Shown: piece after piece, positions 1-34,040 of the stretch
Position numbering within the stretch: the first letter of the stretch is position 1
How the letters are laid out: each line of letters opens with the position of its first letter
NCBI GenBank assembly: GCA_023251725.1
Contig: JAHEYG010000018.1
Span: 1-43,394, forward strand
Length of the DNA: 43,394 nt
Source of the DNA: Sphingobacteriaceae bacterium
GTDB lineage: Bacteria > Bacteroidota > Bacteroidia > B-17B0 > Aurantibacillaceae
Direction: 5' to 3'
Notes under the pieces: generated by a model
What the model saw: only the letters and a program-made list of their open reading frames with translations
Database searches by the model: none
Told to the model about the DNA's origin: nothing
Position numbers and translations under genes: made by a program

Positions 1-578
1 CGCGACCGAAGTGCATTAATACAAACATCGTGCTCACGCAAATGGTAATTTAAATATCTTACAAAAACTTCCATTACCGTTTTTGATGCCGCAACATAAT
101 CGTAACCGATTGAGTAGGCATCCGGACCGGTAGAAGAAACACCAATAATATATTTGGGATATTTTTTAAACGCAGCAAAAATTTCTTTTGTGTAGCCAAC
201 CATGGGCCAGGTAGAGTAGGAGATGCTTTGTTTTAATCCTTTTAAAGTATAATCTTCGAAACAATTAATTACCATCGACGAAGAAACATTTGAAATAAAA
301 ATATCGATTTGTTTTACGCCTTGTTTTTTTACTTCTTCCAATAAAGCTTTAGTATCGTCGTTATGCGCCACATCGGCCTGAATTAAAATTGGTTTTGGCG
401 CTTTTACTTTTTCGAACGCAGTGTAAATTCCCGAATCATCGTGATCGCCCCAGCGGTAAGTTAAAATACAAAGTGCACCGCGTTTGCCGAATGATAATCC
501 GGTTTCTAAACCAATCCCGCGCGTTCCGCCTGTGATTAGAACAACTTTGCCGGAAAAATCTAAAAAAGAATTAGTCAT
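1..578 (-). CDS. FabL-like enoyl-ACP reductase / SDR (3' end cut by window edge)
   Basis: The first 192 residues of a short-chain dehydrogenase/reductase; the C-terminus lies beyond the left edge. The Rossmann glycine motif TGGTRGIG is at residues 16-23. The catalytic stretch reads GYDYVAASK, so Tyr and Lys are separated by six residues (Y-x6-K). That spacing is typical of FabI/FabL enoyl-ACP reductases; FabG-type ketoreductases have Y-x3-K. The usual NNAG is replaced by ISNVS. It is a clear paralogue of the gene at 1903-2703, sharing SYSTWPM and YPKY. The start ATG overlaps the TAA of the upstream acyl carrier protein gene by one base (TAATG), implying translational coupling. Proposed role, by inference: NADPH-dependent reduction of an enoyl group on the ACP encoded just upstream. 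An SDR of other specificity cannot be excluded. Confidence 0.8.
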   Translation of the reverse strand, partial: MTNSFLDFSGKVVLITGGTRGIGLETGLSFGKRGALCILTYRWGDHDDSGIYTAFEKVKAPKPILIQADVAHNDDTKALLEEVKKQGVKQIDIFISNVSSSMVINCFEDYTLKGLKQSISYSTWPMVGYTKEIFAAFKKYPKYIIGVSSTGPDAYSIGYDYVAASKTVMEVFVRYLNYHLREHDVCINALRS

Positions 579-820
579 TAATTTTTCGAATAGGTCTCGA
601 ATTTATCTATTAATCCCTTGATGTTTTGGATATCGTTTAATTCGGTACGGGGAATTTTAACTTTAAGTTCGCGCATAGCGCCAGAAACTATTTCAACAAT
701 ATCTAAACTGTTTGCACCGTAATCAGTAAACTTTTTTTCAGGATCAATTGTGGTTGTAATGCCCGCTACCGATTTAACTAAATGTTTTTCAATAACTTTT
801 AAAATTTCTGTTCTTTCCAT
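578..820 (-). CDS. Acyl carrier protein
   Basis: An 80-residue acyl carrier protein. The phosphopantetheine attachment site is Ser38 in GANSLDIVE, a variant of the usual DSLD in which the Asp is Asn. Length and helical pattern fit a free-standing ACP. It is the first gene of a minus-strand unit and its stop overlaps the start of the FabL-like reductase. A possible promoter with a perfect -7 box lies about 45 bases upstream. In HMGS beta-branching cassettes a dedicated donor ACP carries the acetyl group used by the HMGS-like enzyme (AcpK in the bacillaene pathway). The surrounding PksG/H/I-type genes make that role plausible here, but it could equally carry the growing chain. Confidence 0.88.
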   Translation of the reverse strand: MERTEILKVIEKHLVKSVAGITTTIDPEKKFTDYGANSLDIVEIVSGAMRELKVKIPRTELNDIQNIKGLIDKFETYSKN

Positions 821-862
821 TTTTGAAATAATTGTTAATTAATACGTTAATGATTGAAGCGA

Positions 863-897
863 CAAATTTAATAAAATTTGAATTCTTTCCTATCAAA
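863..897 (-). promoter_or_regulatory. Putative Bacteroidota promoter for the ACP-reductase unit
   Basis: On the minus strand TAAATTTG (863-870) matches the -7 consensus TAnnTTTG perfectly, and TTTG (894-897) could be the -33 element. The 23-base spacer is at the long end of the accepted range. It lies in the 331-base gap between the divergent ACP and ECH2 genes, in which I see no gene. Confidence 0.4.
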
Positions 898-1031
898 GGC
901 GAAATAATCGAAACACATTATCTTAACAAGTTCTGAGAAAAAAATGCCAAGCTGATTAACCATATTCAATTTTTTAACTCTCTGCAAACCCGAATGATAC
1001 AATAAAATAAAACTGAATTTCTCAATAAAAG

Positions 1032-1039
1032 TATATTTG
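1032..1039 (+). promoter_or_regulatory. Putative -7 box for the ECH2-reductase unit
   Basis: TATATTTG matches the -7 consensus TAnnTTTG. No convincing -33 TTTG is seen at the usual distance, and the leader to the ATG at 1152 would be about 105 bases. Weak support. Confidence 0.28.
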
Positions 1040-1151
1040 ATATACAGTTGAATATCAGTGTATTTTAGCTCTGCAAATATTTTTTACTACTTTTACGACA
1101 GTATTAAAACTTATAAACATTTCATTAAAATAAGAGCGTAAAAGCATTAAA

Positions 1152-1919
1152 ATGAGTGATTCAAAGCAAAATAAATTAGTCACACTTTCTTACCAAAAGT
1201 CGGGCGTTGTGACTATGCAGATGATTGATAAAGAAAATAAAAACGGATTAACACCCGAATTTGTTGACGCCTTAATGCATTGTTTAAACGAGGTAAAATT
1301 AAATGAAGAAATAAAAGTTTTGGTGATGACCGGCACAAGCGATATTTTTTGCTCTGGGGCTGATTTAAATACATTGGTTCGTTTAACAAAAAAAGAATTA
1401 AAACCGGTTGATATTGTTCTTAGTAAAATGATTTTAGATATTCCGGTTCCGGTAATTGCGGCCATGGAAGGTCACGCAATTGGCGGAGGTTTTGCTTTGG
1501 GATTGTGTGCCGACATGGCTATTTTAGCTGAGGAAAGCAGATACGGTTGTTCGTTTATGAATATGGGATTTACACCCGGAATGGGAATTACAAAATTGAT
1601 GGAACATTATATGACGCCTGCTATTTCGCAGGAAATGCAATACACCGGCAATTTTTATCAGGGAAAAAATTTAATTGGTAAAACTAATTTCAATTATATT
1701 TTACCGAAAGCAGAAGTTTTAGAAAAAGCAAATGCATTGGCCGATGCAATGGCCGAAAAACCGCGACAAGCATTATCTGTATTAAAAAGATATCATAGCA
1801 TGCAGCGCCGCCAAAAGTTTGAAGAAACTTTTACTTTAGAAACCATGATGCACGAATTAACTTTTAATCAGGAAGAAATATTAAAAATTATAGAACAAAA
1901 TTATGTCAGATACAAATAA
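1152..1919 (+). CDS. ECH2-type enoyl-CoA hydratase-family decarboxylase (PksI-like)
   Basis: A 255-residue crotonase-fold protein. Visible are FCSGADL (residues 66-72), the oxyanion-hole segment EGHAIGGGF (106-114) and GFTPGMG (139-145). From memory, GFTPGMG is characteristic of ECH2 enzymes of beta-branching cassettes such as PksI. These decarboxylate a 3-methylglutaconyl-ACP to a beta-methyl enoyl-ACP. The gene's end overlaps the start of the next FabL-like reductase by 17 bases, so the two are co-translated. An HMGS-like gene and an ECH1-like gene sit in the nearby minus-strand operon. By inference it performs the last carbon-removing step of beta-branching; an ordinary enoyl-CoA hydratase is the alternative. 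Confidence 0.8.
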   Translation: MSDSKQNKLVTLSYQKSGVVTMQMIDKENKNGLTPEFVDALMHCLNEVKLNEEIKVLVMTGTSDIFCSGADLNTLVRLTKKELKPVDIVLSKMILDIPVPVIAAMEGHAIGGGFALGLCADMAILAEESRYGCSFMNMGFTPGMGITKLMEHYMTPAISQEMQYTGNFYQGKNLIGKTNFNYILPKAEVLEKANALADAMAEKPRQALSVLKRYHSMQRRQKFEETFTLETMMHELTFNQEEILKIIEQNYVRYK

Positions 1920-2703
1920 GCGAGTAGTATTAGTAACCGGCGGTACTAAAGGAATAGGAAAAGAAATTGCATTAAAATTTGCCGAGCATGGCGATGATGT
2001 AGTAATTACTTATGGCTGGGGAAGTATTGAAGACGATGATTTAATAAAAGAATTTACTTCGCGCGGATTGCCGGCGCCCATGTTAAAACAAGCCGACGTA
2101 ATTAATAATGAAGACACGATTGATTTGTTAACTGAAATAAAAAAACGTTACGGTAAATTAGATATTTTTATTTCGAATGTGTCGTTTGCTAATTTGGTAA
2201 AAGGTATTGACGATTACAGCGAAGCTTCGCTTTTAAAAAGTATTGAATACAGCACTTGGCCAATGATTGAATACACCCGCCAAATGAAAAATGTAATTGG
2301 TGCTTATCCTAAATATGTATTGGGATTATCATCGCACGGGCCGTCGCGTTTTCATAAAAGTTACGATTTTGCTGCGGCTACAAAAGCATTGAACGAAACG
2401 TTTGTAAAATATTTGACCTATCATTTTTATAATGAGAATGTAATTTTTAATATTTTAAGAACCCGTCCTGTTATTACTGATTCTCTTCTCTCCACTTTTG
2501 GTAAAGAGTGGGAAACTTTTATTAAAAAATATGATATTCCCGGAACCCACATTGAGTTGGAAGAAGTAGCAAAAGTTACTTACGCGATGTGCAGCGGTTT
2601 AATGGATGGCATCCGCGGACAAACCATCATCGCCGACCGTGGTTACGATTTTGCCGAAGGTTTGATGCGCATGTACATGGATAAAGAAAAGTTGGGGATG
2701 TAG
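1903..2703 (+). CDS. FabL-like enoyl-ACP reductase (SDR family)
   Basis: A 266-residue SDR, complete. The cofactor motif TGGTKGIG is at residues 12-19. Ser143/Ser144 and SYDFAAATK give Tyr154 and Lys161 (Y-x6-K), the enoyl-reductase spacing of FabI/FabL. The C-terminal GIRGQTIIADRG resembles, from memory, the RGQTIIVDGG of Bacillus FabL. ISNVS (90-94) replaces the common NNAG. The start ATG is inside the 3' end of the ECH2 gene. As ECH2 makes an enoyl-ACP, an adjacent enoyl reductase would give a saturated beta-methyl branch; this is inferred from context. It is paralogous to the truncated gene at 1-578. A three-part inverted-repeat region follows before the convergent gene. Confidence 0.83.
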   Translation: MSDTNKRVVLVTGGTKGIGKEIALKFAEHGDDVVITYGWGSIEDDDLIKEFTSRGLPAPMLKQADVINNEDTIDLLTEIKKRYGKLDIFISNVSFANLVKGIDDYSEASLLKSIEYSTWPMIEYTRQMKNVIGAYPKYVLGLSSHGPSRFHKSYDFAAATKALNETFVKYLTYHFYNENVIFNILRTRPVITDSLLSTFGKEWETFIKKYDIPGTHIELEEVAKVTYAMCSGLMDGIRGQTIIADRGYDFAEGLMRMYMDKEKLGM

Positions 2704-2716
2704 CAGCCTCACTCCC

Positions 2717-2749
2717 TCCCGATAGCTATCGGGACTCTCCAAAGGAGAG
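2717..2749. repeat. Palindromic intergenic element between convergent genes
   Basis: A perfect 18-base palindrome TCCCGATAGCTATCGGGA (2717-2734) is followed directly by a stem-loop CTCTCC-AAA-GGAGAG (2735-2749). The same 18-base palindrome recurs at 8505-8522, so it is a dispersed repeat. Its place between convergent stop codons fits a bidirectional transcription end, though no long T-run follows. Confidence 0.65.
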
Positions 2750-2777
2750 AGGGGTACTTTTTCTCTTTGAAAAGCTT

Positions 2778-4577
2778 TTACTTTGTAATGATTAAACGTT
2801 TACTAACGGTTTGGTTATTGCCGTTGGTTATTTTTAGAATATAAACTCCACTTGAGAGTTCGGAAGTTGATAGCGTTACATTTCCATTTATTACTGCAGA
2901 TTCTTTATTTATTAATTCTTTACCTGTAATATCAAAAACACTTAATGAAATTAATGATTCATTAAAATTAGCAAAGGCAATATTTAAAATGTCTTTTGCG
3001 GGTTGCGGATATAAATAAATATTTTTAGCCAATTCATTTTCTTCTTTTATTCCCGCCGCAGGACTAATATTTACAGTACCGGTGCCAACGGTTAATCCCG
3101 CAAAAATACCGAGATTATTAATTCGTTGGGCATTTAAAATTCCCAAATTTAAAACTGTATTGGTTGCAATGCTTGCTTTTGCTTTATAATGTAAAATAGC
3201 AATGTTGCCAAACCCGGTTACGTTGGCAGTATTTGTTCTTACACTGGCGGCATAAACAGTACTGTTTGCAAAAATTTCTTTTCTGAACTTTATATTTGGA
3301 CTTCCGGCATTTAAAAACGAACTTGGATATTCTAAATAAACACTATCGGTTTGAATTAAGGAATTATCAAAATTTATTTCGAAAGCCAAACCGTAAATGC
3401 CGTTTATGGGTGTTCCAATGCTGCCAAGATTAATATTGGAGGTGCCCCAGGTTCCGGCAACAATATTTGCCTGATTTGGAATAATACTTAAATCGGGATT
3501 AACAACTTCGATATATAACGGTTTGAAAGCGTGAGTTTGTAAAAAATTTAAATTCACCGCTAAGGTATCCTGTAAGCTTATAAAACCATCGCCATTGCAA
3601 TCGCTGTGGCAAAGATTTTTTCCGGTGGTAACTGTTCCTGTCCAGTTATTAGAAAAATAGGAAACATAACTATTACTTGTTATAGCGCGCGGCGGGCCAC
3701 TTTGCGAAATATGCAAACCAATTTCTAAAATGTCTAAAGTATTTGCAACACCATCGCTGTTGGCATCACCCGGCCAAACATCCGAACAAGTATTGTTTAC
3801 CGAAACTGTAACTGTATTATTTCCCACACAACCATTTGCACCCGTAGCACTAAGCGAATAAGTTGTTGTAACCGTTGGTAAAACATTTACGGTATTTAAT
3901 GTTGCTCCTGTACTCCACGTATAAGTTACTGCGCCGCTTGCTGTAAAATTTGTGCTTGTGCCTAAACAAACTGTTGGAGTGCCGGTAATGCTAATAGTTG
4001 GAGTTGTGGTATTTGTAAAAATACTAACGGTTTGGTTTGCCCAACATCCATTTGTTATGTTTGCTACTGTTACTGTATATACTCCTGGGTAATTAACACA
4101 TAGTGGTAGAACATTATTAAGAGGTCCAATGAGAGAACCCAGCGGATCAAGCCAAATCCCTGAAATACTAAGTGAAGGGGAGGCGGTAGCAGTAAAACAA
4201 CAAATCGAATTTGTACAAGTAACAGTACCTGAAGATGAAGTTACAGTAATAGTTGGCGCAACGGTATTTTGACTTATACTTATTGTTTGCGTAAAAATAC
4301 AAGCGAAAGAAGCGTCCTTTGCATCAACTGTATAAATTCCGGGAGTTGTGCAGGTGTAATTTGTGCCTGTAACGGTGCTTGCCGATGGGGTTGTCCAGGT
4401 ATAAGTTACGCTTGGCATTGTAGAAGTATTAATTGCGGTTAATGTAAGTGTGTTAGGATTACATCCCAATAAAGTGCCGGAAGGGGCGCTTATACTAAAA
4501 GTCGGGCATTGCGCTTGAATAAAATTATTGAAGGTAATTCCCAAAAAAACAAGAAATGTAAAATAGATTTTTTTCAT
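2778..4577 (-). CDS. T9SS-secreted Ig-like/PKD-type protein with dockerin-like segment
   Basis: A 599-residue secreted protein. Residues 1-22 form a signal peptide ending at QAQ. About 250 residues of Thr/Ser-rich Ig- or PKD-like repeats follow (patterns such as TYTWTTP, VTYTWSTG, GVYTVTV). Around residues 267-350 are two calcium-loop-like motifs, DANSDG and DCNGDG, spaced like a dockerin or EF-hand pair. A cohesin-like beta region precedes the T9SS type A sorting domain, with LYPQPAKD and a tail ending SKRLIITK. It is unrelated to the lipid genes around it and lies between two halves of that locus. Binding partner and function are unknown; a surface adhesin or scaffold-type role is a guess. 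Confidence 0.85.
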   Translation of the reverse strand: MKKIYFTFLVFLGITFNNFIQAQCPTFSISAPSGTLLGCNPNTLTLTAINTSTMPSVTYTWTTPSASTVTGTNYTCTTPGIYTVDAKDASFACIFTQTISISQNTVAPTITVTSSSGTVTCTNSICCFTATASPSLSISGIWLDPLGSLIGPLNNVLPLCVNYPGVYTVTVANITNGCWANQTVSIFTNTTTPTISITGTPTVCLGTSTNFTASGAVTYTWSTGATLNTVNVLPTVTTTYSLSATGANGCVGNNTVTVSVNNTCSDVWPGDANSDGVANTLDILEIGLHISQSGPPRAITSNSYVSYFSNNWTGTVTTGKNLCHSDCNGDGFISLQDTLAVNLNFLQTHAFKPLYIEVVNPDLSIIPNQANIVAGTWGTSNINLGSIGTPINGIYGLAFEINFDNSLIQTDSVYLEYPSSFLNAGSPNIKFRKEIFANSTVYAASVRTNTANVTGFGNIAILHYKAKASIATNTVLNLGILNAQRINNLGIFAGLTVGTGTVNISPAAGIKEENELAKNIYLYPQPAKDILNIAFANFNESLISLSVFDITGKELINKESAVINGNVTLSTSELSSGVYILKITNGNNQTVSKRLIITK

Positions 4578-4610
4578 TGCTAAATTAAATAGGCAATAAC
4601 CGTGCCAAAA

Positions 4611-4628
4611 TCGGGATAAATATCCCGA
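4611..4628 (-). terminator. Stem-loop after the desaturase gene
   Basis: Inverted repeat TCGGGATA/TATCCCGA followed on the minus strand by TTTT, ten bases after the desaturase stop. It fits a short intrinsic terminator for the lipid operon. Confidence 0.5.
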
Positions 4629-4638
4629 CCAACGTATA

Positions 4639-5679
4639 TTAAACCGGAATCCTTCTGGTTCTCTCTTTCAAAAGTGCAATAGCTTGCTCTTGTGTGGTAA
4701 TATTTGGATTTACTATTACCATATTTTTTGCGAGGATATCGTAGCGTTTAAACATTAAGAAAAACCACACCGAAAAAAAATCGAGTTTTTTAAAGATGAT
4801 AGAATTTTCGTTAGCATATTTATCGGTATTCTTTAAAAATTCGCCGGGTAATTCTAAAAAATGCATGGCGGGTTTTAAATGGTGTACAATGTGATAACCA
4901 TCGTTAAAACAAGTTTTATTATAACGCGAATTAATGCAATTGATGGCACTGGTATAATTATTTTTAGGATCGTTACGATCAATGAAAGCGTGTTGCCCCC
5001 AATTACCTGCCATCATTAAAAAGCGCACCACAAAAACAGGAATCACAAAAACAAATATAGAAGCGAGCGGATTAAAAAACATTAATGCGATGGCCATTAC
5101 CCAAAACGAAAATTCTCCCAATAAAAACTTCGTTCTAATCTTATCGCGCTTTTTGCCTTTTAAATAAACTGCTAAATCGTAAATCCCAAAAATGATAAAC
5201 GTAAAATAATAATTTAAAAAAGACCGGAAACTGTCGCGCTGATGTTTCATAGTGCTGCTATGATCGGTAGGCATATTATCTTCGGCATGATGCATACCTA
5301 AATGGTGGGCAAAATACGCTTCGGGTGTTTCACCAAAAAACGGACCAATTACCCAAGGAATTACATAATTTAAAGCGCCGTATTCTTTTTTAAACAGCGG
5401 ACGGTGCGAAGTTAAATGCAGCATTAAAACAAATGGCCCGGTAAAATATCCAAAGTTTATCGCATAATAAATGGGTATCAACCACCAATGAAATAATCCC
5501 GGTATAAATAAAATAACAGCGAAAGGAATTATTGTTACAAAAAGAATTCCACTTAATTTTATAAATGCTAAATCGCGTTTATCATTGAGCATTTTAATAA
5601 AAAAACGTTCAATAAAATTAAACTCTGTTTTTTCTTTATAAACAGGGTCGGTAATTGTGATTTCGCTGATAGGAATCAT
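4639..5679 (-). CDS. Membrane fatty acid desaturase family protein
   Basis: A 346-residue multi-pass membrane protein. It has the histidine clusters of the membrane di-iron desaturase/hydroxylase superfamily: HLTSH (88-92), HHLGMHH (125-131), an isolated His230 in NWGQH, and HIVHH (263-267). Hydrophobic helices flank these at about 40-62, 65-90, 105-116 and 190-225. The family introduces double bonds, or sometimes hydroxyls, into lipid acyl chains at the membrane. It is the last gene of a minus-strand series, 12 bases after the fatty-acid hydroxylase, with a stem-loop behind it. Adjacency to the synthase genes suggests it modifies their product. Regiochemistry cannot be read from the sequence. 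Confidence 0.85.
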   Translation of the reverse strand: MIPISEITITDPVYKEKTEFNFIERFFIKMLNDKRDLAFIKLSGILFVTIIPFAVILFIPGLFHWWLIPIYYAINFGYFTGPFVLMLHLTSHRPLFKKEYGALNYVIPWVIGPFFGETPEAYFAHHLGMHHAEDNMPTDHSSTMKHQRDSFRSFLNYYFTFIIFGIYDLAVYLKGKKRDKIRTKFLLGEFSFWVMAIALMFFNPLASIFVFVIPVFVVRFLMMAGNWGQHAFIDRNDPKNNYTSAINCINSRYNKTCFNDGYHIVHHLKPAMHFLELPGEFLKNTDKYANENSIIFKKLDFFSVWFFLMFKRYDILAKNMVIVNPNITTQEQAIALLKERTRRIPV

Positions 5680-5691
5680 TTAAAAAGAAAA

Positions 5692-6327
5692 TTATTTATT
5701 TGGATTTACATCTTTAAAATCGGTACGGAAAATTAAATCCCAAAATTTTGAACTCACACCGTAACCATTATCGTGGTCGCGGTAATGATGAATCATGTGA
5801 TGCTGTTTTATTTTATTCCAAAAACCATTATTAAACGAAAAATGGTGAATGGCGTAATGCGATAAATCGTAAAACAAATATCCCATTACAAAACCGCTGA
5901 AAAAAGGCGCTACGTATGCTTCGCCAATTAAATAGCGGAATGAATAATAAAATGCAAATGCCAACGGAACACTAACTGCAGGCGCCATTACCAAGCGATT
6001 TTTATCGTTAGGATAATCGTGATGCACACCGTGAAAAACAAAATGAACACGCTTACCAAATTCTGAAGTGGGTTTGTAATGAAATAAAAAACGGTGCAAA
6101 ATATATTCTACAAATGTCCATGCAAAAATACCTGCGGCGATAAATAAAATAATATACAAGGCCGAAAGATGATAAGTTACAATTGATAAATAAATAAAAT
6201 AGGCTACAACCGGTACAAATAAAAAAATAGGCACCGTAAAATGAATTTTTGAAAATGCTTCGTAAAAATTGCTTTTAAACATCCGAGATGATTCCTGAGC
6301 GTTGGATACAAATAATTTTTCTGCCAT
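5692..6327 (-). CDS. Fatty acid hydroxylase superfamily protein (Scs7/FA2H-like)
   Basis: A 211-residue integral membrane di-iron enzyme. Histidine motifs run in the order expected for the fatty-acid hydroxylase/sterol desaturase superfamily: HRFLFH (78-83), HGVHH (99-103), HYAIHH (157-162) and HHMIHH (176-181). The sequence DYPNDKNRLVMAP after the second box closely recalls the fatty-acid 2-hydroxylases (yeast Scs7, animal FA2H), which hydroxylate the C2 of sphingolipid acyl chains. Hydrophobic segments lie at about 30-75 and 115-155. It is tightly linked to the desaturase (12 bases). Assignment as a 2-hydroxylase is an inference from that motif. Confidence 0.82.
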   Translation of the reverse strand: MAEKLFVSNAQESSRMFKSNFYEAFSKIHFTVPIFLFVPVVAYFIYLSIVTYHLSALYIILFIAAGIFAWTFVEYILHRFLFHYKPTSEFGKRVHFVFHGVHHDYPNDKNRLVMAPAVSVPLAFAFYYSFRYLIGEAYVAPFFSGFVMGYLFYDLSHYAIHHFSFNNGFWNKIKQHHMIHHYRDHDNGYGVSSKFWDLIFRTDFKDVNPNK

Positions 6328-6433
6328 TGGTATTAATTTTGCCGTAAAGATACTAAAAAACGGCGTAGATTTTTAAGCAATTATGATGAGAATCATAATG
6401 ATTTTAACAATAATCAGAGCAAAATAGAACGCG

Positions 6434-6475
6434 CCTGCCTGCCCTTGCCCAAGCCTGTGTGCTACGGCAGGCAGG
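6434..6475. repeat. GC-rich intergenic hairpin
   Basis: CCTGCCTGCC (6434-6443) pairs perfectly with GGCAGGCAGG (6466-6475) across a 22-base loop, in an AT-rich 179-base gap. The downstream bases repeat CGCGGATT-like units (about 6480-6507). It looks like a dispersed extragenic repeat; it could also attenuate transcription into the hydroxylase-desaturase pair. Confidence 0.55.
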
Positions 6476-6506
6476 GATGACGCGGATTGGGCGGATTAAC
6501 GCGGAT

Positions 6507-7208
6507 TTAATCAAGAAATTCTGAAAGATTGATTAATCGCTGTTTAATTTCGGGGTTTTTGAGTTTTGATAATAGCAGATTCATTCCTTTTTGGGAAAGT
6601 TGCGTTTTGCTAAGGTGAGAATTATATAATAAATTTTTAAAATCGCCGACAGAATCTTGTTTGCACGATTTCATTGAATGCACTGCTTTATTTAAAGTAT
6701 TTTCTATTTCGTTAGATTGTACAACTTCATCGGCAATTCCCCAGGAAAGCACATTTGCTGATGAATATTTTTGTCCGCTTAAAAACATTTTTTTAATAAT
6801 GTGAGGCGTTAATTTACTTAACAGAGGAGGAAGGATGGTTCCCGGAATTAATCCCAATAAACCTTCGGGCAAACTAAAGGTGCTTTTTTCGCTCGCAATT
6901 ACATAATCGCAGGCGCAAACAATTCCCATGCCGCCGCCCGAAACGCTTCCGTTAATTATAGCAATGGAAATAAATTTTGAAGTCTGTAATTTTTTTAAAA
7001 ACAATCCGAAGGCCGCTATTTCCTTTTTAAACCCTGCCGGTTTATTGTTAGAAACCCATTTAATATCCAATCCTTCGCAAAAACAATTTTCGTTTCCTTT
7101 TAAAATTATGAAACGAATATTTTCTTTCTCTGCTTTTTTTAACTGCAAATTTAAATCGCCAATGGTTTTGGGATTTAAAAATTTGGGAATATTAATTTCT
7201 GTAATCAA
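6507..7208 (-). CDS. ECH1-type enoyl-CoA hydratase-family dehydratase (PksH-like)
   Basis: A 233-residue crotonase-fold protein, shorter than typical enoyl-CoA hydratases (about 260). It has FCEGLD (43-48), the oxyanion segment NGSVSGGGMG (86-95) and FSLPEGLLGLIPGTILP (111-127). From memory the last resembles the FSL-x-LLFGLFP segment of PksH. ECH1 enzymes dehydrate the HMG-like intermediate made by the HMGS-like enzyme. The HMGS-like gene ends two bases upstream, so they are coupled. An in-frame stop lies just upstream, leaving TTG at 7208 (or ATT) as the only possible start, an unusual initiation codon. A generic hydratase is the alternative. Confidence 0.8.
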   Translation of the reverse strand: MITEINIPKFLNPKTIGDLNLQLKKAEKENIRFIILKGNENCFCEGLDIKWVSNNKPAGFKKEIAAFGLFLKKLQTSKFISIAIINGSVSGGGMGIVCACDYVIASEKSTFSLPEGLLGLIPGTILPPLLSKLTPHIIKKMFLSGQKYSSANVLSWGIADEVVQSNEIENTLNKAVHSMKSCKQDSVGDFKNLLYNSHLSKTQLSQKGMNLLLSKLKNPEIKQRLINLSEFLD

Positions 7209-7210
7209 AA

Positions 7211-8434
7211 TTAGCTAAATTCGTAAGTTCTGTAATAACCTTTTGAGCCGGTGAAGATCAATAATCCTTTTCCTTTGTAAGCTTTTTCGAATAAACCTGC
7301 AACACCACTAAAATCGGGCGTGAAGTCGCTTTCTTTAATTCTTTCTTCGCGGTCTTGCTCCATTTTTTCGTATTGCGCCACCGAAATGGTATAACGGTTT
7401 GCCAACAATTCTTTTAAACCTGATTTTTTTGCAATCTCTTTTGATTTATCGGTAACCAAAACTGTATAAAACTCAGCGCAAGAACCGGAACCGTAAGAAA
7501 ACACACCGATGCGGTCGTTTGCTTTTGCTTCAACGGTATCAATTAATCCCAACAAGGCTAAAAAAATACTTCCGCCATAAGTGGCACCAATCTTTCTTGC
7601 ATAGGCAATTGATGGTAAAACTTTTTGAGAATAATTTTCAGCGACTTCTGCATCTGTTGCATCCGAATTCATCCGCATCAATAATTTGTGCGCCCTAAAA
7701 CTTATTCCGCTAAACGGCACATGGTAAATATTGTATTTGAAATAAGTTTTGAAATCAATTTCACCTACGTTTAAAACAAAATCATCATAAGCAGCCGCTA
7801 AAGCTTCCATATAAGAAAACAAACTATGTTCGCTGTTTCCGGTCTCTAACCAAGGTAACGGTCTTATTACATCGGCAACTTCGTGAGCGTAAATTCCTGA
7901 TTTTTCTAATTCTAATTCTAAAAACTCAGGTTTATCAGAAACCAACATCGCCACCGCACCGCCACCGCAAATATATTCCCAAGGTTTCATTAATGAATTT
8001 AAACTTTCGTCGGTGGTAATTACCAATGCTTTTTGCCCTTTTTTTATCATCCCCGACGACAACCATCCAACCGCCATTTTTAAAGCGGCAGTTCCCGAAT
8101 AACAGGCAATTTTAATTTCGAAATGGCGACAATTACTTGGCAGTCCTAAATAATGAAATACCCAAGAGCTCAAAGATTTTTCGTGATCTAATCCTGTTTC
8201 GGTGGCGAGAATTAATAAACCAATGGAATCAATATCTTCTTTTGTAAGCATTGGCTTCGCTGCATTCACTGCCATGGTTACAGGGTCTTCCCAGCTTGGA
8301 TTTACGCCACGCTGCTGCACCATTAATTCTTTTTTCATGTGAGCCACATCGTAACCGCGCGCGTTTGCTAACTCTTCTAAATCGAGCTGCAAGGCTGTGG
8401 GATAAACTCTTATTTTTTCGATTCCGTATGTCAT
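7211..8434 (-). CDS. HMG-CoA-synthase-like beta-branching enzyme (PksG-like HCS)
   Basis: A 407-residue thiolase-fold protein with all three catalytic residues of HMG-CoA synthase: Glu79 in ATETGLD, Cys111 in ACYSGTAAL, and His238 in YHVPFSG. E79 and C111 match the numbering I recall for staphylococcal HMG-CoA synthase. The family condenses an acetyl donor onto a beta-keto acyl thioester. In polyketide pathways the PksG-type enzyme does this on ACP-bound chains to start beta-branching. It is followed after two bases by an ECH1-like gene, and ACP, KS, KR, DH and AT genes surround it. No mevalonate-pathway gene is nearby, which favours the polyketide-type role over isoprenoid synthesis. Confidence 0.87.
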   Translation of the reverse strand: MTYGIEKIRVYPTALQLDLEELANARGYDVAHMKKELMVQQRGVNPSWEDPVTMAVNAAKPMLTKEDIDSIGLLILATETGLDHEKSLSSWVFHYLGLPSNCRHFEIKIACYSGTAALKMAVGWLSSGMIKKGQKALVITTDESLNSLMKPWEYICGGGAVAMLVSDKPEFLELELEKSGIYAHEVADVIRPLPWLETGNSEHSLFSYMEALAAAYDDFVLNVGEIDFKTYFKYNIYHVPFSGISFRAHKLLMRMNSDATDAEVAENYSQKVLPSIAYARKIGATYGGSIFLALLGLIDTVEAKANDRIGVFSYGSGSCAEFYTVLVTDKSKEIAKKSGLKELLANRYTISVAQYEKMEQDREERIKESDFTPDFSGVAGLFEKAYKGKGLLIFTGSKGYYRTYEFS

Positions 8435-8504
8435 CTGTTTTAAAAATAAAAGAGGATAATTATTTCCTCTTTATTAATTTTATTTTTTAAATGTGATTTC
8501 GACG

Positions 8505-8563
8505 TCCCGATAGCTATCGGGATCAATCACCATTTTCAGATGGAGGCTGAGCCCGTCGAAGCC
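8505..8563. repeat. Dispersed REP-like elements in the FabG-HCS gap
   Basis: The 18-base palindrome TCCCGATAGCTATCGGGA (8505-8522) is identical to 2717-2734. GGAGGCTGAGCCCGTCGAAGCC (8542-8563) is a 22-base element found again, same orientation, at 36443-36464. They occupy a 138-base gap inside the operon. Confidence 0.75.
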
Positions 8564-8572
8564 GGTGTTATT

Positions 8573-9313
8573 TTATTCCGACCAGTCTAACCCTCCGGTT
8601 ACACTGATTACTTGTCCGTTTACAAAACTTGCCGCATCCGATCCTAAAAATAAAACTACTTCCGATAATTCTTCTAAATTTCCCATACGTTTAACCGGAC
8701 AATGCTGCATCCAAAAATTTCTTAACGCAGTACTCATTGTTCCTTTTGTCATGTCGGTTTCAAACATTCCGGGTACCACAACATTACTGGTAATTCCTTT
8801 TGAGCCGTATTCTTTTGCAATTGTACCGGATAAACCAATTAAGCCTGATTTGCTGGCGCTGTAATTTGCCTGTCCTGATATACCGTCTTTCGCTATTGAC
8901 GAAAGGGCAACGAAATGTCCTTTTCGATTGGAAAGAAACACGGGTAAAAAAGCGCGCATTACATAAAATGTTCCGTTTAAATTGGTATCAATTACATCGT
9001 GCCATTCTTCATCGCTCATGCTAAACGCTAAATTATTTTTATTGATACCGGCGTTATTTACAACGGTATCAATCGAATCAAAATCATCAAGCACGGCATC
9101 TGCAACATTACTCACATCATCCGAATTACGAACATTAAGTTGATACGCTTTACACATTTGTTTTGGCGCAATACTTTTTGCTTCGGCTAATAATTTATTT
9201 ACATCCGTATCGGGATTGCTGTACGTAAAAGCAACATCATGACCTTTTGCCAAAGCCGTCATCACAATATTGTGACCAATTCCTCTCGAACCTCCTGTTA
9301 CAAAAATTTTCAT
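8573..9313 (-). CDS. 3-oxoacyl-ACP reductase, FabG-like
   Basis: A 246-residue classical SDR. The cofactor motif TGGSRGIG is at residues 6-13, NNAG at 86-89, and the catalytic set is Asn111 (TNLNG), Ser139 and YSASK (Tyr151, Lys155). The Y-x3-K spacing and length are those of FabG, unlike the two Y-x6-K reductases elsewhere in the locus. It would reduce the beta-keto group after each condensation, using NADPH. It lies four bases after the ketosynthase gene, so the two are translationally linked. A gap of 138 bases with repeats separates it from the HMGS-like gene downstream. Confidence 0.87.
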   Translation of the reverse strand: MKIFVTGGSRGIGHNIVMTALAKGHDVAFTYSNPDTDVNKLLAEAKSIAPKQMCKAYQLNVRNSDDVSNVADAVLDDFDSIDTVVNNAGINKNNLAFSMSDEEWHDVIDTNLNGTFYVMRAFLPVFLSNRKGHFVALSSIAKDGISGQANYSASKSGLIGLSGTIAKEYGSKGITSNVVVPGMFETDMTKGTMSTALRNFWMQHCPVKRMGNLEELSEVVLFLGSDAASFVNGQVISVTGGLDWSE

Positions 9314-9317
9314 ATGA

Positions 9318-10601
9318 TTATGCTTTATACTTTTTAATTAAGCTTATACAATTTATTCCGCCAAAGCCGAATGAATTTTTTAATAAAATATTTACATCTT
9401 TTTTCTTTTTTACATTCGCGCAAACATCAATATCCACTTCCGCATCTAATTGATCGATGTTAATGGAAGGATGTAACTCGCCTTTATTCATTTGTAAAAT
9501 GGCGGCAACTGTTTCAACTGTGGCAGCCGACCAGCAAGTATGACCTAACATTGATTTAGGCGCATTGATAACTAATTTTTTGCAATGATCGCCAAACACA
9601 TCTTTTATAGAACGCAATTCAGTTAAATCTCCCAATGGAGTGGATGTTGCATGCGCATTAATATAATCCACTTCTTCAGGTTTTACGCCGCAATTTTTTA
9701 ATAAGCGTTTCATTAAGCGTGCTTGTCCTGCTTGTGAAGGCTGCGGTAAATGACAGCCATCAGTTGAAGATTCAACACCTAAAATTTCGGCATAAATTTT
9801 TGCACCGCGTGCTTTGGCGTGTTCCAATTCTTCGATAATTAAAGCTGCCGCTCCGTGAGCGGGAACAAATCCTTCGCGTTTTGTATCGTAAGGACGACTT
9901 GCTTTTTCGGGCGTATCGTTATAAGATTTATAAGTGATGGCTCCCATGATACTCATTCCCTGAACATCGAGTAAAGAAAAATCTAACATTGGCGCAACAA
10001 CTGCAGCAACATTTACATCGTGCATTTGAATTTCATCAACTGCGCAACGTAATGCAATGTTTCCGCTGGCGCAGGCACCGCCCACTGTGTAACCCGGGCC
10101 AAACGTTTGCAAAACATCAGTAACGCCACCCACGTGATGTGTATCTAAACCATACAGTGCGAATAAACCATCAACAAATTCAGGCTCATCGTTAAAAATA
10201 TCGTGATTTTCGAAAGTATATTTTTGATTTAAGTTATGGCCGGCAACAACAGTAGCAATATTGTTTCCTTCTTTAATTTCGTTAATGTAACCCGAATCTA
10301 AAAAAGCTTCAACGGCAACTTGCAATGACATTGCACTTGAAAAAGGAAATTTGCTTCCCAATTTTAAAAACTTGTCATACATCGGTTTTGGAATTTTTCC
10401 TTCGTAAGTTTTTATTTTTGATATGATATCATACTCCCCTAAATCGCTTCCTACTTTAGCGGCAATTTTTTCGGTATTCAGAGTTTTCCATCTTGTAACA
10501 CCAGATTTACCGGCTAATAAATTTTCGAGGAACGAATTTAAATTATCGCCAAGCGGACTATTAATCGACATTCCTGTTACTACTACGCGTTTTTTTAACA
10601 T
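9318..10601 (-). CDS. Beta-ketoacyl-ACP synthase (FabF/PksF-like)
   Basis: A 427-residue ketosynthase with the full Cys-His-His set: Cys177 in GGACASGN, His317 in NAHATSTP, Lys349 in APKS and His354 in MLGHTCWSA. FabF usually reads GHTLGAAGA there, so GHTCWSA marks a divergent subfamily. C-terminal FGFGG (411-415) is normal. Free-standing KS proteins of known HMGS cassettes have the active Cys replaced by Ser and only decarboxylate malonyl-ACP. This one keeps Cys and should be able to condense. It may therefore elongate the chain, with the decarboxylation role shared or done elsewhere. It sits between the dehydratase (65 bases) and FabG-like (four bases) genes. Confidence 0.87.
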   Translation of the reverse strand: MLKKRVVVTGMSINSPLGDNLNSFLENLLAGKSGVTRWKTLNTEKIAAKVGSDLGEYDIISKIKTYEGKIPKPMYDKFLKLGSKFPFSSAMSLQVAVEAFLDSGYINEIKEGNNIATVVAGHNLNQKYTFENHDIFNDEPEFVDGLFALYGLDTHHVGGVTDVLQTFGPGYTVGGACASGNIALRCAVDEIQMHDVNVAAVVAPMLDFSLLDVQGMSIMGAITYKSYNDTPEKASRPYDTKREGFVPAHGAAALIIEELEHAKARGAKIYAEILGVESSTDGCHLPQPSQAGQARLMKRLLKNCGVKPEEVDYINAHATSTPLGDLTELRSIKDVFGDHCKKLVINAPKSMLGHTCWSAATVETVAAILQMNKGELHPSINIDQLDAEVDIDVCANVKKKKDVNILLKNSFGFGGINCISLIKKYKA

Positions 10602-10666
10602 AAAATTTATTTTTTAATTCTTATAGTTCTTAATTTTTAATTTTTAATTCTTCATTCTTAATTTCC

Positions 10667-11200
10667 TTAAGGATAGTATACTTCTAAAATACTGTGCGAA
10701 TACAATTCTTTACCAATGAAAACCTGGGCCGACATTAACCCCATAAAATCATCGTCTTCAATTATTTTTACTCTCACACTTAAATTATCACCCGGCATCA
10801 CAGGTTTATTAAATCCTGTGTTGTGAACTCTTGTAAATAATCCTTTAACCGGTTCGCTGTTATTTTTTATTTCGGAAGTATTATTTTTTACAAAATAAGC
10901 GAGACATAATCCTGCTTGTCCCATTGTTTCGATTTGAAAAACGCCCGGATAAACCGGTTGACCGGGAAAATGGCCTGCAAATACCGGATCTTTCGGATCT
11001 ACTTTACTTGTAACTTCAATAATTTGATTTGTTAGATTAATAGCAGTTATGGTAGAAATTAAATTAAACGGTTCGCGATGAGGAATAATTTTATTCACTT
11101 CATTTTTCCCATAATTTACTTTTACGCAACCATCGGCCGGCAAATCCATTATTTCTCTTTTAAGAGAGTGGGTAAGAATTTCTTTTTCTTCGGTAGTCAC
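10667..11200 (-). CDS. 3-hydroxyacyl-ACP dehydratase, FabZ/FabA-like hotdog protein
   Basis: A 177-residue hotdog-fold protein. IPHREPF (39-45) and GHFPGQPVYPGV (76-87) followed by IETMGQAG (90-97) match the FabZ pattern, with catalytic residues expected at His77 and Glu91. It is longer than FabZ (about 150) through an N-terminal extension of about 35 residues. It would dehydrate beta-hydroxyacyl-ACP to enoyl-ACP. The start codon is GTG at 11200. Gaps of 84 and 65 bases separate it from the acyltransferase and ketosynthase genes on the same strand. Conserved as part of the synthase set, it supplies substrate for the FabL-like reductases. Confidence 0.83.
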   Translation of the reverse strand: MTTEEKEILTHSLKREIMDLPADGCVKVNYGKNEVNKIIPHREPFNLISTITAINLTNQIIEVTSKVDPKDPVFAGHFPGQPVYPGVFQIETMGQAGLCLAYFVKNNTSEIKNNSEPVKGLFTRVHNTGFNKPVMPGDNLSVRVKIIEDDDFMGLMSAQVFIGKELYSHSILEVYYP

Positions 11201-11284
11201 TTTACAATTTTTTCAAATCAGGAATAAAAATACAAAAACATTTAACAAGGCGAAAATGCAGTTTTTAATCTTAATAAAGGCATT

Positions 11285-12130
11285 TTAATTTCTTATTTTT
11301 TTAAGTACATTGCTTAGCACTTCTCCGGGGCCTACTTCCATAAAATTATAATCGCCCTGATAAAGCACATATTCTACACTTTGCATCCATTTTACCCTAC
11401 TATCGATTTGATTAACCATATTTTTAATAATCCCCTCCATTTCTTCGGGATAAGGAGCAGCGGTATAATTGGAAATAACTGGAACAGTACATTTATTTAA
11501 TTTCATTTCTTTTATAAAACTGTGAAATTTTTCTTTGATGGGATTCATGTATCGCGAATGAAAAGCGCCACTTACTTTTAAGGGAATAAATACTAATCCT
11601 TCTTCCTCAAAAAAATCGGCGGCTTTTTCTAGTGATTCGAGCGGACCTGAAATAACCATTTGAGAAGGCGTATTAACATTGGCAATATCTATATCAGAAA
11701 AATGCGAATTTAAAATTTGTTTTATTTCTTTATAGTCTGATCCAATTACTGCCGCCATTCCTGTTCCTCCAATAGAAAACATTAATTCGCCCCGTTTCTG
11801 AACAATGCGTAAACCGGTTTCAAAATCAAAAACCCCGGCAGCATTTAAGGCATTAAATTCTCCCAAACTATGTCCTAAAATGTAAACGGGCATAATATTT
11901 TCTTTGAGATATTTTTGATAATAGAGGTAATTTACCAAAAACATTGCCGGTTGAGTATAATTGGTTTGATTTAATAAGTTATTAATATTGTTAAGACAAA
12001 TATCGGCCACATCGTAACCCAGAACAGCGCTTGCTGCAACAACGGTTTCGGGGAATTCTTTAAACAAGTCTTCGCCCATACCTTTAAACTGCGACCCTTG
12101 ACCGGGAAACATAGTTACTTTATATGGCAT
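11285..12130 (-). CDS. Malonyl-CoA:ACP acyltransferase (FabD/trans-AT type)
   Basis: A 281-residue acyltransferase. The nucleophile is Ser88 in GHSLGE, with Gln11 in PGQGSQ, Arg113 in QKRGELM and His191 in GAFHSRYMNP. GAFHS is the motif usual in malonyl-specific enzymes. Length matches FabD and the discrete acyltransferases of trans-AT polyketide systems. It is the first gene of the minus-strand series and has the best promoter match in the locus just upstream. It would load malonyl groups on the ACP. It may be a second FabD dedicated to this locus or the genome's only one; the window cannot tell. Confidence 0.88.
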   Translation of the reverse strand: MPYKVTMFPGQGSQFKGMGEDLFKEFPETVVAASAVLGYDVADICLNNINNLLNQTNYTQPAMFLVNYLYYQKYLKENIMPVYILGHSLGEFNALNAAGVFDFETGLRIVQKRGELMFSIGGTGMAAVIGSDYKEIKQILNSHFSDIDIANVNTPSQMVISGPLESLEKAADFFEEEGLVFIPLKVSGAFHSRYMNPIKEKFHSFIKEMKLNKCTVPVISNYTAAPYPEEMEGIIKNMVNQIDSRVKWMQSVEYVLYQGDYNFMEVGPGEVLSNVLKKIRN

Positions 12131-12254: not shown

Positions 12255-13181
12255 CTATTCAAATTCATCTTGCCCAACAGCTGTTTTAGCTGATATTTTG
12301 CTGTAAATAAAATTGGCGATTGCTATGAAAATAGGAACAGAAATTATCCCGGCAAACACATCCACCGCATAATGTGCTTTTATGTAAACGGTAGCAAAAC
12401 AAATACCAATTACAAATGGCCAAATAACATAAAAAAGTTTACGCATGTGTTTGTAGGTAATGTAGGCAACAATAATAATAACACCCACATGCGAACTCGG
12501 AAATGCGCCTGTAGGTTTCTCAATTATTTCGGCACCGTATTGTATTATTTTGCCAAAAATGTATGGACTTGAAATTGAAGAATCGGGAGGAGTAAAATAA
12601 AATTGCGGCCCCACCACCGGCAAAAAACAAAATATTATGTAGTACATGTAAAAGGCCGAAACGATAATAAAAATACTTTTTTTAGATTCTTGGCGGTCTT
12701 TTATAAAATGCACTATGCAAACCAGTAAAATAAAAAAATAATACGAGAAATAGCAAATATGCATCAATTCATTAAACCAATCGTGAGGTATGGCTTTACA
12801 GAATTCAACACTTGGCTGGCAACCAAAAATAGTTTGCTCGCAACCTGAAACAAAACCATCGAAATCGCTGTTAATCAAAATATTTCTAAGATAACTTGTT
12901 TCGGGATAAAATATATTGAGAATGATAAGAGGATAGAAATGCCGTGCAATTTCGAGGGGTTTATTGGGATTTTTTTTATGTAAATAGGCCATTAAGAAAA
13001 CCACACCGAAAACAATCATTCGGTAAATAAAATGCCATAAGGTATTTGGTAAATAAGAAACTCCGAGGCATAAATACACAGTAGAAAATAAAATATAGAA
13101 AATGGTTACTTTATCCAACGGAGAAAAAAAACTTTCCGTTTTAGAGCCATTTTTCTTGTTTATTTTAATCAACCGTTTCAT
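12255..13181 (-). CDS. PAP2-superfamily membrane phosphatase / phosphotransferase
   Basis: A 308-residue membrane protein with about six hydrophobic helices. It has the PAP2 motifs GAFPSSHVG and AHYAVDVFAG, giving His231, His270 and Asp274 in this numbering. The preceding LPVVGPQFYF resembles the first conserved block of inositol-phosphorylceramide-synthase-like members. The family handles lipid phosphates or lipid head-group transfer at the membrane. A TTG start at 13211 is possible, but ATG at 13181 is preceded by AAGGAG, one of the few clear ribosome sites here, so I chose it. It lies between the GNAT gene and the synthase operon on the same strand. A role in maturing that operon's lipid is inferred. 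Confidence 0.8.
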   Translation of the reverse strand: MKRLIKINKKNGSKTESFFSPLDKVTIFYILFSTVYLCLGVSYLPNTLWHFIYRMIVFGVVFLMAYLHKKNPNKPLEIARHFYPLIILNIFYPETSYLRNILINSDFDGFVSGCEQTIFGCQPSVEFCKAIPHDWFNELMHICYFSYYFFILLVCIVHFIKDRQESKKSIFIIVSAFYMYYIIFCFLPVVGPQFYFTPPDSSISSPYIFGKIIQYGAEIIEKPTGAFPSSHVGVIIIVAYITYKHMRKLFYVIWPFVIGICFATVYIKAHYAVDVFAGIISVPIFIAIANFIYSKISAKTAVGQDEFE

Positions 13182-13230
13182 AAACTCCTTATTTGAAATC
13201 GCATTCAGCAATAAATTTTAAATCTACCTG

Positions 13231-13338: not shown

Positions 13339-14466
13339 TTAACCCTTTATGGATTTAATATACATTCGTGATGTTTTGTAAACTGTTGCATTAATTCTGA
13401 GCAATCCCTGATTCATCATTTCATTATTTTCCAGAATAAGGGAAGCCTCGGCAGTATGTATATTTTTTGCTTTACACGTTGTAATTATTTTCGAATAAAA
13501 AATAGCTTCAATACCCATTTTTCTGTAGCCCTCTATAACCCCAAGTACAACAATGCGGATACTGTTAATTTTTTTGAGACCAAATAATAATTTAAATATT
13601 CCGAAGGGGAGTAATCGTCCGCGTTTTATTTTTTGCAATATTTGATTGATATTAGGAATTGCAAAAGCGAATCCAATCATTTTACCTTCGTGTTCGGCCA
13701 CCAAACATAATTCAGGATCAACAATCAGTTTCATATCCTTACATAAGTGTAAAAATTCGTTTTTTGTCATAGGAACGAAACCTAAATTTTTATCCCAGGC
13801 GGCATTATAAACATGGCTTGCTGCTTCTGCTTCCTGATTATAAATTTTCATATTAATTGGTCGGATGGTTATTCCTTTTGTTTTGAGTCTTTCTTCAAAA
13901 GCCTGAGATAATTTTACGGATTTATCTGAAACGCTGGTATCTTCTATTTTATAAGCAAACAAATCCACTTTTTTAGCGAAACCATATTGCTCAATTAATT
14001 TTGCGTAATACGGAAAATTATAAGTAGTATTAATCATCGCGGGCGTATCAAAGCCATCTATTAATAAACCGAAAGGCTCGTTGGTTGAAAAATTAGCGGG
14101 ACCAATTATCGAATTCAACCCTTCTTTTTTTACCCAATCACAAGCGGTATCAAATAATTTTCCCGCAACTTCTTCATCGTTTATTGCATCAAAAAAACCA
14201 AAGAAGCCTTCGTTGTTTCCGGTAAATTTAATGTGATTGTTATTTCTGATGGCGGCAATACGGCCAACAATTTTATTATCGCGGTAAGCTAAAAATAAAT
14301 CGAGATGAGAATGTTCGAAAAACGGATGTTTTTTAGGATCTAATAAATCTTTTTGTGCCAAAAAAAGTTCCGGTACATAATTCTTCTCATCTTTATATAA
14401 TTCGTGGGGAAAATCGATGAAGTCACTAAGCTTTTTTGTTCCGGTAATTTTTTCTACAGTAATCAT
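13339..14466 (-). CDS. Large GNAT-fold acyltransferase (YghO-like family)
   Basis: A protein of about 375 residues, widespread in Bacteroidota. It has two GNAT-like halves: the N-terminal half shows YVPELFLAQ, HPFFEH and FLAYRDNKIVGRIAAI, and the C-terminal half shows MIGFAFAIPN and VLGVIEGYRKMGIEAIFY. An ATG at 14502 would add 12 residues, but ATGATTACTGTAGAA at 14466 looks the more typical start for this family. I recall that the bacterial ceramide synthase described in Caulobacter is a GNAT protein that may belong to this type, but I am not certain. It precedes the PAP2 gene on the same strand. Acyl transfer to an amine of a lipid is therefore possible and untested. Confidence 0.72.
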   Translation of the reverse strand: MITVEKITGTKKLSDFIDFPHELYKDEKNYVPELFLAQKDLLDPKKHPFFEHSHLDLFLAYRDNKIVGRIAAIRNNNHIKFTGNNEGFFGFFDAINDEEVAGKLFDTACDWVKKEGLNSIIGPANFSTNEPFGLLIDGFDTPAMINTTYNFPYYAKLIEQYGFAKKVDLFAYKIEDTSVSDKSVKLSQAFEERLKTKGITIRPINMKIYNQEAEAASHVYNAAWDKNLGFVPMTKNEFLHLCKDMKLIVDPELCLVAEHEGKMIGFAFAIPNINQILQKIKRGRLLPFGIFKLLFGLKKINSIRIVVLGVIEGYRKMGIEAIFYSKIITTCKAKNIHTAEASLILENNEMMNQGLLRINATVYKTSRMYIKSIKG

Positions 14467-14637
14467 TTTTAGTTTTAAAATCGGTGGTGTAAAATTATGC
14501 ATTTCTTTTTATTAATTCGTATAATTTTAAATTGTATTTTAAACATAATAAAGGGTAAAATTCCTAATTTCGTTCGATAAATTAAAGGTAGTTTACCGCT
14601 TCAGAATTGCCTCAAAATTGTATCCGACATTTGTTTT

Positions 14638-34039: not shown

Positions 34040-34040
34040 T

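Follow-up and report, generated by a model that had tools for sequence, protein, structure and literature searches.

Beta-branching by 3-hydroxy-3-methylglutaryl (HMG) synthase (HMGS) enzymes is known from giant modular polyketide synthases (PKSs), to which it is an accessory, and the question raised by the locus described here is what a full set of such enzymes makes when the enzymes of chain elongation beside it are separate proteins as well. The locus lies in contig JAHEYG010000018.1 of the Sphingobacteriaceae bacterium assembly GCA_023251725.1, a stretch of 43,394 nucleotides (the window) that is one complete contig (G000:C117) of a 132-contig metagenome-assembled genome (MAG) with 75% completeness. 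The cluster is probably a dedicated type II (discrete-enzyme) beta-branching synthase making the chain of a sphingoid-type base. A discrete HMGS system working without a modular PKS had been predicted from the sequence of the window, and that part of the original prediction largely held. The methyl-branched acyl chain given there as product is probably not a free or ordinary one: the cluster is linked to an alpha-oxoamine synthase (AOS), of the superfamily of serine palmitoyltransferase (SPT), and to a short-chain dehydrogenase/reductase (SDR), so that the product is probably a sphingoid-type amino ketone or amino alcohol.

Enzymes of the set and their kinship

The set comprises an HMG-acyl carrier protein synthase (HCS), two enzymes of the enoyl-CoA hydratase family (ECH1 and ECH2), an acyl carrier protein (ACP), a ketosynthase (KS), a ketoreductase (KR), a dehydratase (DH), an acyltransferase (AT) and two enoyl reductases (ER1 and ER2), located in the window as follows.

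3..578, minus strand: ER1, SDR enoyl reductase resembling FabL/FabI, of which the contig end leaves the N-terminal 192 aa (family search and Y-x6-K motif)
578..820, minus strand: free ACP of 80 aa with the Ser in GANSLD, the sole ACP seen in the cluster (closest to PRK07117, under cut-off)
1152..1919, plus strand: ECH2, PksI/CurF-type enoyl decarboxylase (PRK07110 model, tree and PDB matches)
1903..2703, plus strand: ER2, second FabL/FabI-like SDR enoyl reductase, overlapping ECH2 by 17 bases (family search and motif)
6507..7208, minus strand: ECH1, cassette-type enoyl hydratase/dehydratase (tree grouping not starred)
7211..8434, minus strand: HCS, HMG-ACP synthase of the PksG/CurD kind, Glu79/Cys111/His238 (motif, tree and PDB)
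8573..9313, minus strand: FabG-like KR (family search and YSASK)
9318..10601, minus strand: KS that has its active Cys; its clade is sister to that of the cassette KSs lacking the Cys (triad and tree)
10667..11200, minus strand: FabZ-like DH, under the FabZ cut-offs (family search)
11285..12130, minus strand: FabD-like malonyl AT (FabD model and GHSLGE)

All enzymes and motifs listed in the original prediction were recovered at their places by motif reading, family searches and inspection of the KS triad. The motif GFTPGMG is at residue 139 of the ECH2 frame and FSLPEGLLGLIPG at residue 111 of that of ECH1, the Y-x6-K motif reads YDYVAASK and YDFAAATK in the two enoyl reductases, the KS has the Cys-His-His triad, and GHSLGE of the AT, YSASK of the KR and GANSLD of the ACP are all present. 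ECH2 passes the polyketide ECH model PRK07110 (282 against a cut-off of 215) and the AT passes FabD (305 against 261), while the models nearest to the KS, PRK07103 (341, cut-off 445), and to the ACP, PRK07117, presumably an AcpK-type model (46.9, cut-off 79 bits), are not passed. The cassette proteins have counterparts of 52-85% identity in other MAGs of Bacteroidota and of 26-60% in three further loci, L031 and L034 (titled Spirochaetes) and L032 (titled bacterium); since the genes recur across these genomes, the cassette is beyond chance.

The HCS had been set against PksG and the mevalonate HMGS, and it falls with the PksG/CurD type. Its PDB matches are led by CurD (3e-82) and PksG (5e-73), followed by the HMG-CoA synthase-like 8s81 (2e-68) and by HMG-CoA synthases from 6e-55. 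In the tree of 31 rows a discrete-cluster clade (100/99*) holds 13 Bacteroidota-type HCSs, those of L031, L032 and L034 and one from a Serratia plasmid; nine PKS-cassette HCSs stand beside it (91/85), and the mevalonate HMGS is apart from both groups (100/100*). These nine HCSs and the six KSs used for comparison were called PKS-cassette by their gene neighbours: a PKS-size gene (>2.5 kb) lies in the fetched stretch for six of the nine (Enterobacter, Methylosinus, Pseudoalteromonas pTML1, Azospirillum, Ensifer and Eleftheria) and not for Sandaracinus, S. xanthii and B. velezensis, and one was seen for five of the six KSs.

For the ECHs, which had been set against the hydratases of fatty acid degradation, the outcome is mixed. 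In the tree, ECH2s from discrete clusters join those from PKS clusters in a single clade (100/100*), separate from one Methylobacterium hydratase and from three further hydratases of the MAG, which places ECH2 with the PKS-cassette decarboxylases. The ECH1s of discrete and cassette clusters group together at 94/89, not starred, and the PDB matches of ECH1 are mixed, with PksH ranking fourth.

Discrete and PKS-cassette KSs likewise form one clade (100/98*), each in its own subclade and apart from the other KSs of the MAG. The active Cys is kept in 11/11 discrete-cluster KSs and replaced in 6/6 PKS-cassette KSs, five times by Ser and once by Met. Rows outside the 11/11 count are L032_KS1, a FabF-type second KS, and the four other KSs of the MAG, all with Cys, and the Serratia KS pieces, in one of which the Cys was read. 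The retained Cys favours elongation, as had been predicted, over the role of the decarboxylating KS of a cassette. Because other KSs have the Cys, the simplest reading would be that the discrete KSs kept it and the cassette KSs lost it, an order that we infer on a midpoint-rooted tree.

Continuation past the contig end and the link to an alpha-oxoamine synthase

The left (5′) end of the window is a contig break inside the ER1 gene. A second contig of the same MAG (C79) aligns at its start, over positions 1-2055 of the fetched locus L038, to window positions 1-1500 with 92.7% DNA identity and looks like a strain variant of the window locus, the two versions in one MAG probably reflecting a strain mixture in the bin. 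On C79 the order ECH2, ACP, ER1 is as in the window, the full-length ER1 has 282 aa, and it is followed by an AOS of 433 aa, an SDR of 261 aa and a DUF4833-type protein. The same continuation past ER1 is found in the relatives G001 and G031, and in locus L033 the ACP, ER1, AOS and SDR are consecutive.

The absence of a modular PKS, which the original prediction had left to be checked to the left of the window, is borne out by this continuation and by a search for ketosynthases. No PKS-like gene past the left end was found in the 20 kb read of the 72.6-kb C79, and a ketosynthase search of this MAG and of 10 further genomes with the cluster, mostly incomplete drafts, one of them (G451) a single 4.6-Mb contig, revealed neither a modular nor an iterative type I PKS. 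The five PF02801 ketosynthase domains of the MAG lie in frames of 384-431 aa, and the largest frame for the 32 domains of the other ten is 460 aa.

The AOS of the relatives matches the Pfam aminotransferase class I/II family, and its best NCBIfam models are of the BioF, Kbl and SPT types, none above cut-off. The PDB matches of the G001 AOS are AOS enzymes, headed by BioF/Kbl and including SPTs, and the C79 AOS has the pyridoxal phosphate Lys and the conserved His and Asp of this fold family. Identification as canonical SPT was rejected: cluster AOSs reach 239-272 bits with curated SPT models whose cut-offs are 500-670, which two SPT references pass with 833 and 618, and model NF047600 was above cut-off in 0/18 genomes (17 with HCS, and G003). 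The cluster AOSs form a clade of their own in a tree with an unresolved backbone and share TFSK and DEAHS with the two SPT references. Another AOS of G451, next to which a G001 relative stands in the tree, was set aside; its best PDB matches are 7u7h (7-keto-8-aminopelargonate synthetase-like, 2e-170) and 28eh (cysteate-C-fatty acyltransferase, 8e-165), with SPT at only 1e-62, and is by these matches probably an enzyme of sulfonolipid synthesis outside this cluster.

Among the 87 genomes of the family (f1), HCS was found at E <= 1e-60 in 17 and the cluster-type AOS, 77-81% identical to that of C79, in 16; none of the other AOSs among the matches listed exceeds 36% identity. Both occur in 15 genomes, HCS only in two (G456, 60% complete, and G485, 56%), AOS only in one (G003, 82%) and neither in 69 (Fisher p = 8e-14, uncorrected for relatedness). 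HCS and AOS are on one contig in 6/15 genomes, 3.6-6.4 kb apart. Gene neighbourhoods were compared over 19 locus sets (18 genomes and L033), in which genes are missed at contig ends and the HCS contigs of G471 and G495 are not included. AOS and SDR are adjacent in all 17 AOS-bearing sets, and ECH2 is present in 16 of these, lying divergently beside the ACP in 15; the exception is G015, with HCS alone in 40 kb and an AOS locus without ECH2 in the 14 kb fetched. In L032 and L034 the genes for KS, KR, HCS, ECH1, ECH2, ER, ACP, AOS and FabZ form one run. Cluster gene content and locus sets place a chain-building synthase and an AOS in one cluster, as in PKS-derived sphingolipid clusters of the SgaAB type.

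Outside the family, a wider spread in the Bacteroidota was dropped, since HCS reached E <= 1e-60 in 1/395 genomes of a phylum sample, only in this MAG. Short patterns taken from the HCS of the window found 10 loci in a contig scan, with L031, L032 and L034 at 44-46% identity. One locus titled Candidatus Saccharibacteria (L028, CAJCJB010000183.1) matches like a contig of G021 of the present family, and its title may be wrong.

Further genes recur around the core enzymes. The set had been predicted to fill positions 1 to 12,130; its genes are there, but the end at 12,130 did not stand, as two recurring genes carry the set on to 14,502. With two candidates for tailoring, these are:

4639..5679, minus strand: fatty acid desaturase family protein, tailoring candidate, in 5/19 locus sets
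5692..6327, minus strand: fatty acid hydroxylase family protein (PF04116), tailoring candidate, in 4/19 locus sets
12255..13211, minus strand: PAP2_3 membrane protein, candidate head-group transferase, beside the cluster in 9/19 locus sets (predicted model)
13339..14502, minus strand: tandem-GNAT protein, candidate N-acyltransferase, beside the cluster in 7/19 locus sets (predicted model)

A sequence search of the PDB with the PAP2_3 protein gave no matches, and its predicted model is most like inositol-phosphorylceramide synthase/Aur1. For the GNAT protein the six PDB matches (best E 0.036) are unrelated proteins, and the predicted model, of middling confidence (pLDDT 63), shows the tandem-GNAT fold only. 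DUF4833-type proteins (L038 4448-5005; L061 14707-15291) lie beside AOS-SDR in 8/19 locus sets; in G451 one lies next to a CDP-alcohol transferase and PAP2_3 instead, and the proteins are possibly a lipid-related family. Carotenoid-type genes (polyprenyl synthase, lycopene cyclase, phytoene synthase and an amine-oxidase-type desaturase) stand directly beside ECH2 at 13550-17637 of L033; they were seen in no other locus read, not all of which were searched for carotenoid genes, and the link was taken as local.

In this MAG a surface protein with a Por secretion-system sorting tail (2778-4577) lies inside the cluster interval and is outside the pathway. Two intergenic gaps of the cluster (2718-2733 and 8506-8521) carry the perfect 16-base palindrome CCCGATAGCTATCGGG, possibly a dispersed repeat or terminator, of which the MAG has 16 copies and none of the reversed control. 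At 33041-35093 of the window a C5 cytosine methyltransferase adjoins a BsuBI/PstI-type restriction endonuclease, a restriction-modification pair.

Predicted product and competing explanations

From the genes present, their families and catalytic residues, and their linkage and co-occurrence, as described above, we infer the reactions and their iterative use, which amino acid is taken, how many branches form and where, and the accessory steps. The AT would load malonyl onto the cluster ACP and the Cys-bearing KS would extend the chain, which KR, FabZ and ER would reduce in plain cycles. In at least one cycle HCS would add an acetyl unit to the beta-ketone, after which ECH1 would dehydrate, ECH2 decarboxylate and an ER saturate, giving a beta-methyl branch; one ACP may serve throughout, or the ACP of the core fatty acid synthase (FAS) may help. 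The AOS would then condense the ACP-bound branched chain with an amino acid, probably serine, and the adjacent SDR would reduce the ketone. The GNAT protein may N-acylate the base, PAP2_3 may add a head group, and the desaturase and hydroxylase may tailor the product. A branch at the start only (iso end) and branching also in mid-chain fit the sequence alike.

The first of these is a special case of the sphingoid-base reading, with the same genes and only the place of the single branch differing, and is possible, though less likely than not. The cassette would act a single time, on acetoacetyl-ACP, to form 3-methylcrotonyl-ACP and from it isovaleryl-ACP with no need of leucine, and straight cycles would carry this primer to an iso-branched long-chain base. 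Such bases are usual in Bacteroidota, and the set would be used most economically with a single HCS cycle; no sequence feature fixes the cycle, though, and core FAS could extend such a primer, which would make a dedicated KS, KR, DH, AT and ER superfluous. A non-leucine route to isovaleryl-CoA by 3-methylglutaconyl-CoA decarboxylation in Myxococcus, as given in the part of PMC7756340 consulted, is in its favour.

Two explanations depart from the sphingoid base altogether. The product would be a branched fatty acid or a small polyketide, which we consider unlikely, if the neighbouring AOS and SDR belonged to another pathway. What weighs here against the link to the AOS is that HCS and AOS are on different contigs in 9/15 genomes, mostly at contig ends, and that the loci are truly separate in at least four of these genomes: in G013, G015, G486 and G496 the HCS lies far from the ends of its contig, which splits the set between two loci. 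Moreover, plasmid pSF001 of Serratia fonticola, a cultured isolate (L040/L041), has a type II HMGS set, partly duplicated in KS-KR-HCS pieces of which some are broken, and no AOS was found in the stretch read. On the other side, ECH2 accompanies the AOS in all but one of the 17 AOS loci, HCS and AOS co-occur also where their loci are separate, and an AOS is present in the distant L032 and L034 clusters. A role in HMG-CoA or leucine/isoprenoid metabolism, with a mevalonate-type HCS and ECHs of degradation, is highly improbable and already contradicted: the best NCBIfam match of the HCS is the prokaryotic HMG-CoA synthase model, but with 264 bits against an equivalog cut-off of 360, and the tree and PDB matches of HCS and the polyketide model passed by ECH2 speak against it.

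A bolder combination is rather unlikely as a whole, namely that the product would be a new class of sphingoid base with several beta-derived methyl branches, made by an iterative type II synthase alternating plain and HMGS cycles on one ACP, and that the discrete Cys-bearing system would preserve the ancestral form that was recruited as modular-PKS cassettes, whose KS then lost its Cys.

Comparison with known systems

PKS-derived sphingolipids are already known, an iterative type I PKS and an AOS making them in Pseudomonas (PMC12134224, seen in part), and PMC11334938, which describes Spt-like proteins in many phyla, does not use the word polyketide in its main text. No description of a type II synthase with HMGS branching and an AOS was found in the open-access literature searched. 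The complete discrete set is a minimal system for reconstituting branching, the choice of ACP and the control of cycles in vitro, and it may be a living relative of the ancestor of the cassettes. From its tie to an AOS, uncultured Bacteroidota and Spirochaetes are predicted to make a branched lipid not yet described, within reach of lipidomics.

With the HMGS cassettes of PKSs (bacillaene PksG/PksI, curacin CurD/CurF) the set shares homologous HCS, ECH2 and KS and probably ECH1 and the free ACP. It differs in that no modular PKS was found and discrete KR, DH, ER and AT adjoin, that the KS has its Cys, and that HCS and KS stand in clades of their own. Canonical SPT draws its fatty acyl chain from core metabolism. 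At such loci, as on the Sphingomonas parapaucimobilis plasmid L109, where an ACP precedes an AOS that passes the SPT models, the ACP adjoins the AOS and a reductase-type gene is nearby as here, whereas the present cluster has a dedicated chain synthase and an AOS of another clade.

The Bacteroides operon BT1522-1526 for inositol sphingolipids, as defined in the parts consulted of PMC9246714 and PMC8791184, is alike in having an Aur1-like protein near long-chain-base genes. An inositol head group as a general trait was hinted at by the closed carrier G451, in which MIPS, PgpA, a CDP-alcohol transferase and PAP2_3 are close to the cluster, and was dropped, as MIPS, unlike in that operon, is in only 3/87 family genomes, one of them a carrier. 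A type I PKS, an AOS and an SDR are consecutive at 2731-4939 of L115, a Shinella plasmid, a further PKS-AOS pair of the SgaAB kind. In PfSgaAB itself, of Pseudomonas fluorescens MYb115 (PMC12134224), a PKS-built chain is released by an AOS as a sphingolipid, as is predicted here; SgaA is a single iterative type I PKS, whereas the present cluster divides the work among discrete enzymes, beta-branching ones included.

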